Origin: Rhodobacteraceae bacterium HIMB11 | GTDB lineage: Bacteria; Pseudomonadota; Alphaproteobacteria; Rhodobacterales; Rhodobacteraceae | Assembly: GCA_000472185.1 (NCBI GenBank) | Contig: AVDB01000010.1 | Coordinates: forward strand, 1 to 64,000 | Length of the DNA stretch: 64,000 nt | Reading direction: 5' to 3' | The notes under the pieces: generated by a model | Told to the model about the DNA's origin: nothing | Seen by the model: the letters and a program-made list of their open reading frames with translations, nothing else | Database searches by the model: none | Shown: in pieces, positions 10,640 through 49,205 of the stretch | How positions within the stretch are numbered: the stretch's first letter is position 1 | Layout of the letters: each line of letters opens with the position of its first letter | Made by a program: the position numbers and the translations under genes

Positions 10640-10716
10640 TGGTCGGGCTAGCAGGATTCGAACCTACGACCTCCCGTCCCCCAGACGGACGCGCTACCAG
10701 ACTGCGCTATAGCCCG
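10640..10716 (-). tRNA. tRNA-Pro (anticodon GGG)
   Basis: All arms fold: acceptor CGGGCTA with TAGCCCG, D-arm GCGC AGTCTGGTA GCGC, anticodon arm TCCGT-CTGGGGG-ACGGG giving anticodon GGG, a five-base variable loop, and T-arm GTAGG-TTCGAAT-CCTGC. The discriminator is A and CCA is encoded. It reads Pro codons CCC/CCU. No integrase or duplicated 3' end is seen near it. Confidence 0.95.
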
Positions 10717-44643: not shown

Positions 44644-45264
44644 TCAAGTGAATTCAATCAAGACGTTCCGTGATCGGTGTGTATCCACAGAGAGAGATTT
44701 CATGTTGTCAATCCAGCGGGTAATCGCGGGATATTTCTGCAATTCAAATCCACCCTGATCCGCAACGTGAGTATAGGCGAACAAGGCGATGTCCGCGATG
44801 CTGGGATCATTTCCGCCGAAAAATCCGTGTTTTGCCAGGTTGTGTTCCATCACGTTCAGCGCATGCGCCCCATGAACATGGCATTCTTTATATTCCGCAA
44901 AGCGTTCGGCGGACATTTTTTGATAATACTGAATGAACCGCGACACCGCGATAAAGGGTTCGTGACTGTATTGTTTGAAAAACAACCATTCATATGTTTT
45001 GGCGCGTTTGATCCCCGATGGAGGAACCCAAGGGGTGCCTTCGGCCAAAAAGCCCAAAATCGCATTTGATTCAGCCAATGTATTGCCATCGTGCAGGGTT
45101 ACGAATGGAATTTTTCCATTGGGGTTCAATTTTCTGAAAAAGGCTTTGTGCGTATCTCCTGCCAAAACATCAATATCCATCCAATCGTGGTCGATTTTCA
45201 AAATAGAGCAGAATAACTCAATCTTATAACAATTTCCCGATGAACGATCTCCAAAGACCTGCAT
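44644..45264 (-). CDS. Glutathione S-transferase-like protein
   Basis: A 206-residue GST-fold protein. The N-terminal thioredoxin-like domain reads FGDRSSGNCYKIELF, with the cis-Pro region NGKIPFVTL and the glutathione-binding TLAESNAILGFLAEG; the C-terminal all-helical domain follows (NDPSIADIALFAYTHVAD). Start ATG 45262-45264 (MQVFGDRSSGN). The Ser in RSSGN could be the catalytic residue. Substrate unknown. Confidence 0.85.
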   Translation of the reverse strand: MQVFGDRSSGNCYKIELFCSILKIDHDWMDIDVLAGDTHKAFFRKLNPNGKIPFVTLHDGNTLAESNAILGFLAEGTPWVPPSGIKRAKTYEWLFFKQYSHEPFIAVSRFIQYYQKMSAERFAEYKECHVHGAHALNVMEHNLAKHGFFGGNDPSIADIALFAYTHVADQGGFELQKYPAITRWIDNMKSLSVDTHRSRNVLIEFT

Positions 45265-45378
45265 ACCAATTCCCTTAACCAAAATTATCCGACCAATTTG
45301 AACCTTTAAAATCAATCCAAATTATGTGTTTACTGTGGCGGGGCATGGCCCGCAGATACAGAGTAAAGGACATGGTTC

Positions 45379-45771
45379 GTGGAAATTTTATTTGAGCAAG
45401 CCACCCCAATTCCCCATCACGCGCTGGCGGCTTTTGCCGCGGTAATCCTTGGGGCCGTACAATTATGGATGCGAAAAGGGGGGCGTGTTCACCGAACTAT
45501 AGGGTATATTTGGGTTGCCCTGATGGCCATTGTTGCGCTAAGTTCGTTTCTCATCCACGAACTGCGCCTGGTTGGCGCGTTCAGCCCCATTCATTTGCTG
45601 AGCATTTTCACGCTTTGGTCCCTCTATATGGCGATCCGCGCGGCGAAAGATCGGCGCATAAATGCGCACCGTCGGTGGATGCAAAATCTTTATGTGATGT
45701 CCTTGTTGATCACAGGAGCATTCACGTTCCTGCCGGGGCGCACAATGCACATGGTTCTGTTCGGCGGATGA
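45379..45771 (+). CDS. DUF2306-family membrane protein
   Basis: A 130-residue protein with four hydrophobic segments (HALAAFAAVILGAVQLWM, TIGYIWVALMAIVALSSF). The conserved His cluster HRTIGY and INAHRRWMQNLYVMSLL is typical of DUF2306 membrane proteins. The start is GTG 45379 (GTGGAAATT), preceded by AAAGGA. Its stop abuts the cytochrome b561 gene on the other strand. Role unknown, perhaps a haem-linked membrane protein. Confidence 0.8.
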   Translation: MEILFEQATPIPHHALAAFAAVILGAVQLWMRKGGRVHRTIGYIWVALMAIVALSSFLIHELRLVGAFSPIHLLSIFTLWSLYMAIRAAKDRRINAHRRWMQNLYVMSLLITGAFTFLPGRTMHMVLFGG

Positions 45772-46281
45772 TTATTCACGCCAAATGGGGACCATCGCGC
45801 TCCACACTCCATCGTGCAGAAATCGATGATAAAGGGCGGCGGCAATATGCAAGCCGATCAACCAATAACTGGCCGTAACAGATGTTTCGTGAATAAAGAC
45901 TGCAAGACTGATCAACACCCCCTCTGGCCCAAAGAGGGTATAGAGCGCGCCGATGATTAAGCCAGAGGCCGCAATCAACCCCATCGACACATACATCCCG
46001 TAATGCACAACCTTGGCCCCAAGCTTTTGCAAGGCATGTGTGTTTTCAGACAGGGCCGAGGATTGCGTGCGCGTCATATAGAAAAACCGCGCCCCAAGCA
46101 GGATCAGAAAGAGTGCCGCAAAAATCACCTCAAACCGCAAAAGGGCGCCATCGGCCAATTGACTGATGTTATCCACCTGTTTGTAAATCCCATAGGCAAA
46201 GATCACCACAAAACCCCAATGAAAGAGTTTTCCCAAAACGCTATAACGCGCCACTGGCGCAGGTGTTCCTGATTGCTGCAT
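45772..46281 (-). CDS. Cytochrome b561
   Basis: A 169-residue cytochrome b561-type membrane protein with four helices. Haem-ligand histidines are visible in KLFHWGFV, VVHYGMYV, IHETSVTA and GLHIAAALYHRFL. Such proteins move electrons between quinones and periplasmic partners or oxidise superoxide. The gene converges on DUF2306 with adjoining stops. Confidence 0.88.
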   Translation of the reverse strand: MQQSGTPAPVARYSVLGKLFHWGFVVIFAYGIYKQVDNISQLADGALLRFEVIFAALFLILLGARFFYMTRTQSSALSENTHALQKLGAKVVHYGMYVSMGLIAASGLIIGALYTLFGPEGVLISLAVFIHETSVTASYWLIGLHIAAALYHRFLHDGVWSAMVPIWRE

Positions 46282-46409
46282 GCTATACCCCCTAGATTTG
46301 CCGACACATCACAACGCTAATCTAAGAAATGATGCGTCAGAATATAACCCCAGGCATTGACATGGGCCGCGGCTCTGCGCCTTTGGTGCAACAAATTCAG
46401 GAAGTGCAT

Positions 46410-47099
46410 GTGAAAAAGATTGGCATTTTGGGCGGGATGTCCGCCGCCTCAACGCAGATATATTACCAAACACTCTGTTCGCTCACACAGTCGGAATTGG
46501 GCGGCTTGCATTCCCCCAATCTTTTGATCCGTTCTGTGGATTTTGCGCCGCTTGCCCTGCATATGAATGACGGAAACTGGTCGGCCATAGGCGATACGTT
46601 GCATGCCGAGGCGAAATTGCTGGCCGCAGGTGGAGCCGAGCTAATCGTTTTGGCAACAAACGCGATGCACAAACTTAAGGATCAAATCATGCAGGGCATT
46701 GATTTGCCCTTCATCCATATCGCCGAAGCTACAGCCACCGCGGTTTTGGCTGGTGGCTCAAAGCGCCCCGCCTTTTACGCAACAAAATTCACGATGCAAG
46801 AGGCGATTTATCTGGATATTTTGCGCGACAATGGCCTTGATCCAATTGTGCCGAATACAACGGAACAGGATGTGATTAACGACATTATTTTTGACGAGTT
46901 GTGCAAAAATATCGCTACCCCCGAAAGTGAAGCAGTTTATTTGGGCATTTTGAATCGCTTAAAGGCCCAGGGTGCCGATAGCGTGATTTTGGGCTGCACC
47001 GAGATCTGCCTTCTGCTTAACGCCCAAAACACGGGGGTTCCCGTATATGACACAACCCAAATCCACTGTCAGGCCGCACTCAGGGCCGCATTGGATTAG
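46410..47099 (+). CDS. Aspartate/glutamate racemase-family protein (YgeA-type)
   Basis: A 229-residue PLP-independent racemase. The two catalytic positions are Thr in LATNAMHK (Cys in classical racemases, Thr in YgeA) and Cys in ILGCTEICLL. The pattern fits broad-specificity amino acid racemases. I chose GTG 46410 (reading MKKIGILGGMSAASTQIYY), with AGGAAG seven bases upstream; an ATG at 46362 would add 16 residues without similarity. Immediately followed by the duplicated guaA tail. Confidence 0.85.
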   Translation: MKKIGILGGMSAASTQIYYQTLCSLTQSELGGLHSPNLLIRSVDFAPLALHMNDGNWSAIGDTLHAEAKLLAAGGAELIVLATNAMHKLKDQIMQGIDLPFIHIAEATATAVLAGGSKRPAFYATKFTMQEAIYLDILRDNGLDPIVPNTTEQDVINDIIFDELCKNIATPESEAVYLGILNRLKAQGADSVILGCTEICLLLNAQNTGVPVYDTTQIHCQAALRAALD

Positions 47100-47107
47100 C
47101 GCTCAAT

Positions 47108-47125
47108 TTACTCCCACTCAATAGT
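47108..47125 (-). repeat. Duplicated guaA 3' end (att-like repeat, distal copy)
   Basis: On the reverse strand this reads ACT-ATT-GAG-TGG-GAG-TAA, i.e. T-I-E-W-E-stop, the same residues that end GuaA at 47646 (T-I-E-W-E-stop). The 11-base core TCCCACTCAAT is identical at 47112-47122 and 47650-47660. There is no coding frame upstream of it here. It looks like the displaced original end of guaA. Confidence 0.75.
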
Positions 47126-47660
47126 TCTAATCTGTTAAGCAATTGATAATAATTATTTTATTTTTCTATTTGTAAGTACTTTGTAAGTATTACGAACATG
47201 GGATATTCAAAATGTGACACTGAATTCAACATGTGATTAGGCATTCAAGTATCCAATTAGCAATGAGATGAAAGCACCAACATGTACAACCATTATTGCT
47301 CTATCTTTCCACATAAAACCAACGGCAAACCATAAAAATATCCCAACGAAAAACATGTAAATATTATAAGGGATTAAATTCAATCCAGTCATACCATATC
47401 CAATAAGTTGGATTACTGTTGCTAACCATTTAACAACATCAACGAACTTGAATTTAGCCATCATTTTATATGTGCCCTTTACTCTTCAACTCAGCGTTAA
47501 ACTATGAAACGCAATAGTTCCACCACTTTGTATGAAAGTTTGTAAGTCAGTATTTTTTCTCTATAAAAAACAATGACTTAATTTTTGGCGACAATCCACT
47601 TAAGAAAATATTATGTAATAATATCAATTATTTAACGCAATATTCTCATTCCCACTCAAT
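47112..47660. mobile_element. AT-rich mini-element inserted at the 3' end of guaA
   Basis: A 538-base segment between two identical copies of TCCCACTCAAT, with base composition far below the neighbourhood (mostly A/T). It holds one 75-codon frame and no integrase. Three direct copies of TTTGTAAGT (47169-47177, 47180-47188, 47540-47548) lie close to the two ends, resembling arm-type sites of a tyrosine recombinase. The guaA 3' end is a known integration site of genomic islands. The best reading is the remnant or a minimal passenger form of an island. Confidence 0.65.
47237..47464 (-). CDS. Small membrane protein (DUF6552-like)
   Basis: A 75-residue protein, start MMAKFKFVDVVKWLATVIQL, with two to three hydrophobic helices (GMTGLNLIPYNIYMFF, GIFLWFAVGFMW, VVHVGAFISLLIGYL). 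The VVKW..TVIQL and WFAVGFMWKDRA pattern matches small membrane proteins seen in marine Alphaproteobacteria, which I recall as DUF6552. Function unknown. Codon use is AT-rich, unlike flanking genes, and it lies inside the guaA-bounded insert, so it was probably acquired. Confidence 0.65.
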   Translation of the reverse strand: MMAKFKFVDVVKWLATVIQLIGYGMTGLNLIPYNIYMFFVGIFLWFAVGFMWKDRAIMVVHVGAFISLLIGYLNA

Positions 47661-49205
47661 CGTGCCAGGAGGTTTTGATGTGATGTCATAGGTGACGCGG
47701 TTGATGCCTTTGACCTCGTTAATAATACGGGTCGCGGTTTCGCCAAGAAATTCGTGGCTAAACGGATAATAATCCGCGGTCATTCCGTCCACGGATGTCA
47801 CAGCGCGTAGGGCGCAGGCATAATCATAGGTGCGCCCATCGCCCATCACGCCCACGGTGCGTACGGGCAGGATTGCAACAAAGGCCTGCCAAATCTCATC
47901 ATAAAGGCCGTGTTTGCGGATTTGATCGATGTAAACCGCATCCGCCTGACGCAGGATGTCCAATTTCGCGCGGGTGATTTCCCCGGGGCAGCGAATGGCC
48001 AGACCCGGACCCGGGAAGGGGTGGCGCCCGATAAAGCTGTCGGGGAGGCCCAATTCACGGCCCAATGCGCGAACCTCATCCTTGAACAATTCGCGCAAGG
48101 GTTCGACCAATTTCAAACCCATTTTTTTGGGCAACCCGCCCACGTTGTGGTGGGATTTGATGGTGACAGATGGCCCGCCGCTAAACGAAACGGATTCAAT
48201 CACATCGGGATACAGCGTTCCTTGGGCCAAAAATTCAGCCCCCTCAATATCATTTGCATGTTTTTGGAACACATCAATGAACAGGCGACCAATGGTTTTA
48301 CGCTTGGTTTCAGGATCTGACATGCCTTCAAGCTCGGACAGGAACAATTCCTGTTCGTCTGCATGGATCAGCGCCATGTTGTAATTGTCACGGAACATGG
48401 TGACGACTTCTTCGGCCTCGCCCTGACGCAACAGGCCGTGATCAACAAACACACAGGTCAATTGATCGCCAATCGCCTCGTGGATCAGAACGGCGGCGAC
48501 CGAACTGTCGACCCCCCCTGACAGACCACAGATCACGCGTTTGTCGCCCACCTGTTCACGAATGGCGGCAATCGCTTGTTCGCGGTAGGCGCCCATGGTC
48601 CAATCCCCGCTAAAGCCCGCCAATTTGAGAAAGTTTTCAAATAAACGCGCTCCATTTGGGGTGTGATGCACCTCTGGATGGAACTGCACGGCAAAGAAGT
48701 TTCGCGATGGATCGGCGGTAATGGCGTAGGGCGCATTAGGCGATGTTCCATAAACCGCAAACCCAGGTGCGATTTCACTGACGTGATCGCCATGGCTCAT
48801 CCAGACTTGTTCATCGCCTTCGGTAAACCAGCCGTCCAAAATATTCAATGATCCCTTGGGGGTGACATAGGCACGTCCGAATTCCGCGGTGCCATGCCCG
48901 CTTTCGACGCGACCACCCAATTGGTGCATCATGACCTGCTGACCATAACAAATGCCCAAGATCGGAACACCCATGTTAAACGCGGCCTCTGGTGCGCGGG
49001 GGCTTCCCTCACGTGTGACACTGTCGGGACCACCGGAAAAGATGATCGCCTTGGGCGCAAAGCCTGCTAAAAACGCATCAGTAACGTTTTGATAGGGGTG
49101 GATTTCGCAATAAACGTTCAGCTCGCGCAGACGTCGCGCAATCAGCTGCGTTACCTGACTTCCAAAGTCGATGATGAGGAGGCGGTCATGAGATGTATTT
49201 TCCAT
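47646..49205 (-). CDS. guaA: GMP synthase (glutamine-hydrolysing)
   Basis: A 519-residue two-domain enzyme converting XMP to GMP. The class I glutaminase has Cys in [15 protein letters not shown] and His/Glu in FHPEVHHT; the ATP-pyrophosphatase P-loop is [12 protein letters not shown]; the dimerisation domain ends TIEWE. Start ATG 49203-49205 ([17 protein letters not shown]); the longer frame upstream is not conserved. The final codons serve as the att core of an insert but remain functional because the insert restored the same residues. Confidence 0.98.

Follow-up and report, generated by a model that had tools for sequence, protein, structure and literature searches.

A one-gene insert without an integrase at the 3' end of guaA in Rhodobacteraceae bacterium HIMB11, probably a cassette mobilised in trans

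The 3' end of guaA in Rhodobacteraceae bacterium HIMB11 is occupied by a mini-element that is probably a non-autonomous, one-gene integrative cassette, mobilised in trans by a guaA-specific tyrosine integrase. It lies in the window, the stretch of 64,000 nucleotides that was analysed (contig AVDB01000010.1, positions 1 to 64,000, assembly GCA_000472185.1). Comparison with congeners confirms that the mini-element is a genuine insertion, not a chance match or a local duplication. Similar very small cassettes, without a mobility gene but with the landing sites of guaA-specific islands retained, are widespread in aquatic and mainly marine bacteria, and the mini-element belongs to this group. The features of the site are listed in Table 1.

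Table 1. Features of the occupied guaA site (window positions; offsets are counted from the core)
Feature	Position	Strand	Remarks
guaA (GMP synthase, 519 aa), target gene	47646..49205	-	Pfam GMP_synt_C and GATase; last bases supplied by the element
guaA-proximal core (attR) TCCCACTCAAT	47650..47660	+	direct repeat D10
Distal core (attL) TCCCACTCAAT, second T-I-E-W-E-stop copy	47112..47122	+	direct repeat; single at the junction of empty-site congeners
Inserted mini-element, 538 bp core to core, GC 0.30	47123..47649	.	absent from G001 and G003; 997-bp insert instead in G002
Asp/Glu racemase-family gene, left flank outside the element	46329..47099	+	Pfam PF01177; adjoins guaA directly in the G003 empty site
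IHF consensus site, left (P) arm, TATCAATTGCTTA on the minus strand	47136..47148	-	perfect WATCAANNNNTTR
Two tandem 11-bp arm sites TTTGTAAGTAC TTTGTAAGTAT, +57/+68	47169..47190	+	same build in 37 genome contigs
Cargo: DUF6552 small membrane-type protein, 75 aa, on guaA's strand	47237..47464	-	PF20189, E 6.3e-30
Right (P') arm sites TTTGTATGA and TTTGTAAGT, -123/-111	47527..47547	+	offsets as in integrase-bearing islands
Second IHF-like site, -82	47568..47580	+	one mismatch; islands: -82 to -84
IHF consensus site, right arm, TATCAATTATTTA, -28	47622..47634	+	perfect consensus

The guaA gene closes with T-I-E-W-E-stop, and this end is repeated, in the same orientation, 538 bases further downstream. 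The initial annotation had described this duplication with a shared 11-base core and AT-rich DNA between the copies, and each of these points was confirmed: the core TCCCACTCAAT is present in both copies, and the GC content between them is 0.30 against about 0.5 on either side. The guaA-proximal core contains, in reverse complement, GAGTGGGA, the core of the GIsul2 guaA site (PMC9376610). The insertion at the guaA 3' end at this core, with the gene restored, is that of the class of islands that target guaA. Three congeners were available for comparison. G003 (L034) has one core copy, at which the racemase-side flank meets guaA, and in G001 (L032) the site is likewise empty, with a single core. 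The third, G002 (L033), carries a different insert at the same base and with the same ends, 997 bp long with one GNAT acetyltransferase gene. A search of relatives for empty sites and for insert-free strains with a second T-I-E-W-E-stop had been suggested; the two empty-site congeners hold one core only. The insertion follows from the flanks of G003 and G001 meeting at a single core. That the second copy is a chance match or local duplication in ordinary AT-rich intergenic DNA has next to no probability. Such an explanation could cite the short length of the shared repeat, only 14 nt (93% match between the guaA end and the distal copy), but it is already refuted by the empty sites, and it is further opposed by arms that match those of islands and by recurrence in many genera.

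The exact ends could be read from the same comparison. The attB site is TTAC-core-CGTGCC (G001), and the occupied site has TTAC-core-AGTTC as attL and TCAT-core-CGTGCC as attR, from which attP was deduced as TCAT-core-AGTTC. The stop context of guaA is GGGAATGA in HIMB11 and in G002, both with inserts, and GGGAGTAA or GGGAATAA in the empty-site congeners G001 and G003. This switch is as expected if the element supplies the end of guaA, and it agrees with the earlier statement that the insert restores the gene at a known island target. Among 397 family genomes the 16-base attL pattern was found only in HIMB11 and G036, so this exact end is rare. On the left flank, G001 (L032, about 1485) is without window positions 45977-47071 and G002 (L033, about 7286) is without 44753-47053; in both genomes the gap ends just beside the distal core and the racemase gene is gone. 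The missing stretches differ, and represent either deletions beside the att site or assembly effects.

The initial annotation had reported three direct copies of TTTGTAAGT placed like arm sites. They were found at 47169, 47180 and 47539, at fixed offsets that match those of integrase-bearing guaA islands; the right-arm pair (47527 and 47539) and the IHF-like sites beside both cores are additions to that account. Islands in G318, G264, G581, G763 and Marinomonas transparens have arm sites at -123 to -125 and -111 to -113 (-123/-111 in G318, about -124/-112 in G264 and G581, -125/-113 in Marinomonas) together with IHF-like sites at about -83 and -28, and an IHF consensus at -28 is present in all of the islands of G318, G264, G300, G581, G763 and Marinomonas. 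The mini-element shares the -123/-111 arm sites and the -82/-28 IHF-like sites, but it is without the arm sites at -62 and/or -51 that most full islands also have. Perfect IHF consensus sites occur in 9 of 22 independent left (P) arms, compared to 0.16 expected from mononucleotide shuffles. The arm motif is alike in both arms of one element and differs between elements, being TTTGTAAG in the mini-element, TGTGTAAC in G318 and TTTCTAAC in Marinomonas; an autonomous island carrying exactly the TTTGTAAG variant was not found. Several other cassettes have a clear left arm only. Under the cassette reading, the attP of the mini-element is likely to be almost complete: its left arm has an IHF site and two tandem arm sites, its right arm IHF-like sites and one pair of arm sites.

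No integrase was found inside the mini-element, whose sole open reading frame of at least 60 aa is the DUF6552 gene, and no tyrosine integrase lies next to guaA, in agreement with the earlier remark that none is left. A search of the HIMB11 assembly (G000, 99.85% complete), using an alignment of guaA-adjacent integrases as query, detected no guaA-class integrase; the best match, on another contig, had an E-value of 6.8e-27 versus 1e-90 or better for the class. Integrases of this class were detected in 3 of 397 sampled genomes of the family (E about 1e-120) and in 5 of 385 genomes of the class (E below 1e-60). All five of the latter lie directly beside guaA, as does one copy per genome in the three members of the family, that of G300 being broken. 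None was detected at E below 1e-40 in the 19 mini-element genomes including HIMB11, an absence that is not certain because many carrier genomes are MAGs or single cells. Elsewhere in HIMB11, two adjacent tyrosine recombinase genes of 219 and 417 aa lie on opposite strands (G000:C8:49576-51327, L161); their layout resembles that of the pair in the Marinomonas guaA island, and they are located away from guaA and are only distantly related to the guaA class.

The precedent for a helper comes from GIsul2: in recA-deficient E. coli, the CR2-sul2 unit, which has no integrase of its own, is moved from one guaA-type att site to another by the GIsul2 integrase (PMC9376610); by analogy, the mini-element would be mobilised in the same way. 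A tblastn search of plasmids with the Marinomonas guaA integrase returned no GIsul2-like record, so that, on this indirect evidence, the integrases look like different lineages, and the GIsul2 enzyme appears to belong to another lineage than the guaA class described here. The same query gave one weak match to a Rhizobium plasmid and no match in phages, and no relatives of the guaA class were confirmed in viral contigs.

The single small membrane-protein frame noted in the initial annotation is a member of Pfam DUF6552 (E 6e-30). Its protein is 96% identical in amino acids to the copy in the IMCC1909 element, and the closest other homologues sampled are 68-70% identical. The same 75-codon gene at this place in all species would have spoken for a resident gene; DUF6552 scores above the curated cut-off in 35 of 199 sampled family genomes, and a guaA-end duplication was seen at none of ten further DUF6552 loci. 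No relatives of the protein were confirmed in viral contigs. In G004 (L182, G004:C22), one of these ten loci, a homologue with 69% identity lies about 6.5 kb downstream of guaA, with no second core.

The DUF6552 element is common to other hosts in the same compact form. Two other alphaproteobacteria, IMCC1909 and MAG 277c_11, carry it at 538 bp with 86.5% identity (guaA of the hosts 73.7%) and at 498 bp with 79.5% identity (guaA 65.2%), respectively, less diverged in both cases than guaA. In 277c_11 the start of the cargo gene is lost and the arm sites, IHF sites and ends are intact. A 690-bp cassette with a ferric-reductase-like gene is 96.4% identical between the Rhodobiaceae MAG MED801 (Alphaproteobacteria) and SAR86 AG-447-A08 (Gammaproteobacteria), a pair that depends on one MAG, MED801, with Ns inside its cassette; guaA is 56.8% identical between the two and the cassette match stops at the cores. 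Sequence identities of this kind indicate that cassettes have moved between distant hosts. The initial annotation had offered a decayed island or an integrase-less passenger, and of these the passenger fits better, with mobilisation by a helper as the part that we infer. The same element is found with intact ends in other hosts, a different one-gene insert with the same ends sits at the same base in G002, and many genera have cassettes of the same build, either singly or arranged in tandem. An origin of the mini-element as a CIME-like relic, left dead and immobile after a full guaA island contracted in situ in this lineage, is unlikely. Both island arms are kept, as an internal deletion would leave them, and integrase decay is seen in the island of Puniceispirillum AH-135 (L102), where the integrase is reduced to a 103-aa N-terminal piece and a broken second piece. 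However, a relic does not account for the element and its cargo in IMCC1909 and 277c_11 at less divergence than their hosts, it is at odds with the absence of the mini-element from two congeners, and the loss of the cargo start in 277c_11, with arm and IHF sites kept, is the reverse of the decay of mobile ends.

Spread could also have occurred by transformation, phage or gene transfer agents followed by homologous recombination through the guaA flanks, with an integrase no longer needed. In its favour are the small size of the elements, the lack of a guaA-class integrase in most carriers, and the gene transfer agents of Rhodobacterales, which package a few kb. This route is nevertheless quite improbable, as the homology between the alpha- and gammaproteobacterial copies ends at the cores and does not run into guaA, guaA at 57% identity cannot serve as homology, and the route gives no reason for conserved arm and IHF sites to persist.

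A scan of GTDB contigs for the core with tandem arm sites yielded 37 loci, mostly in aquatic Proteobacteria, including SAR86, SAR92, SAR116, Porticoccaceae, Rhodobacteraceae, Polynucleobacter and Marinomonas, among others. At 24 of the 37, guaA is on the same contig within about 11 kb and a second core stands at the guaA end in direct orientation. Many of the guaA inserts are single-gene units of 0.5-1.4 kb, or tandem arrays of such cassettes split by cores. Single mini-elements measure 498, 538, 668, 688, 973, 997, 1248, 1287 and 1398 bp; arrays include 536/697/991 bp in a Pseudomonadales MAG and 1548/1066/801 in a Porticoccaceae MAG, and SAR86 genomes have arrays of several cassette units. 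Islands that bear an integrase are 7.6 kb in Marinomonas, 10.8 kb in Polynucleobacter and 22.3 kb in G318, and in SAR86 AG-333 a 5.5 kb island with an integrase is followed by three cassettes. The cargo consists mostly of single enzymes or membrane proteins, with ferric-reductase-like membrane protein, cytochrome b561, glyoxalase, SDR, HAD hydrolase, beta-lactamase-family protein, GNAT, and HNH, GIY-YIG and AspBHI-type nucleases among the types seen. Cargo reading frames are on guaA's strand in 38 of 42 cases (binomial p 3e-8, the frames being partly non-independent). The cargo gene of many guaA-proximal cassettes begins no more than 50 bp from guaA, which makes read-through from guaA plausible. 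No description of guaA cassette arrays was found in the open-licence literature.

In the mechanism proposed here for the cassettes, a guaA-specific tyrosine integrase from a full-size guaA island would recognise the arms of the cassette and recombine its core with the end of guaA; the gene would stay intact, with new last bases and a new stop codon. Later excision of the cassette could be catalysed by the same integrase. Each newcomer would be inserted on the guaA side of the existing cassettes, which would thereby be displaced outward. The result would be tandem arrays whose cargo genes mostly share the orientation of guaA and may be expressed by read-through from it. We likewise infer the order of entry, the role of IHF, expression by read-through and the route between cells. 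More broadly, guaA may be the landing pad of a cassette system in aquatic Proteobacteria that resembles an integron but relies on a conventional tyrosine integrase. Its one-gene, integrase-less cassettes would have their own arm and IHF sites, be captured beside guaA, form co-directional arrays and pass across genera and even classes with transient helpers; this proposal is tentative and is held with slightly less than even confidence. Streamlined ocean bacteria gain and lose genes rapidly, yet many have few recognisable mobile elements, and guaA cassettes are small enough to look like ordinary intergenic genes. They are a concrete, site-bounded transfer unit whose number in any genome can be read from the sequence downstream of guaA, and they point to a helper enzyme that can be tested. 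Should mobilisation in trans be real, an integron-like cassette pool across bacterial classes would be supported by a conventional integrase.

Several known systems resemble these cassettes in part. GIsul2/CR2-sul2 (PMC9376610) has the same target, the guaA 3' end with core GAGTGGGA, and an integrase-less unit bounded by the core and moved by a guaA integrase, as would be the case here; CR2-sul2, however, is part of an island and carries ISCR2 and sul2, whereas the cassettes are mostly 0.5-1.4 kb, usually have one gene and no resident guaA-class integrase, and form arrays. The mini-element is flanked by attL and attR and has neither integrase nor conjugation genes, as in CIMEs and the site-specific accretion of ICEs, where tandem copies at one site are also possible. 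Unlike CIMEs, which are taken as deletion relics of ICEs, the cassettes cross genera, and one pair crosses classes, with conserved arms. Integron cassettes and CALINs are likewise one-gene, tandem and mostly co-directional, with the integrase encoded elsewhere, but here the end of guaA serves as the core, the accompanying arm and IHF sites are of the type used by conventional integrases, and attC and IntI are not implied. Inserts of 330 bp to 42 kb have been reported in the additive flexible genomic island fGI-2 of Methylophilaceae at tRNA-Lys (PMC10872708), where repeated gene-end copies also bound variable inserts; the guaA inserts, in contrast, target a protein-coding gene and can be linked to arm sites, to an integrase class and to cassette copies in other hosts. 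Integrative elements with variable cargo are also known from marine bacteria as tycheposons and PICMI-type satellites, but these bring their own integration genes, and tycheposons insert at tRNA sites; neither holds for the mini-element. The only tRNA of the window is at 10640, and the insert has a single DUF6552 gene, with no integrase, regulation or packaging functions of the kind found in phage satellites (PICI/PICMI).

The exact predicted attP was not found in viral contigs. One match to the right-arm pattern (TTTGTAAGT with the core) fell in a phage tail gene and was rejected as chance. With the left-arm pattern, two IMG/VR contigs show a distal guaA core with arms that looks genuine: L058 (657-2987), where a gene of unknown family comes next, together with a DNA methyltransferase, and L057 (13936-14120). 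Both contigs otherwise carry T4-like phage genes and appear chimeric, and they were left out as key evidence. The 6.4-kb guaA insert of Puniceispirillum AH-135 includes several large genes, possibly a defence system; the first residues of two of them resemble those of methyltransferases. Longer copies of the guaA end were also seen: G037 (L035, G037:C51 24000-40000) has a second copy of the last 58-59 codons of guaA 3.3 kb downstream, 81% identical to that of the window, and G047 (L036, G047:C21) has one on another contig with 71% identity. These extra ends possibly belong to islands that carry a longer guaA end.
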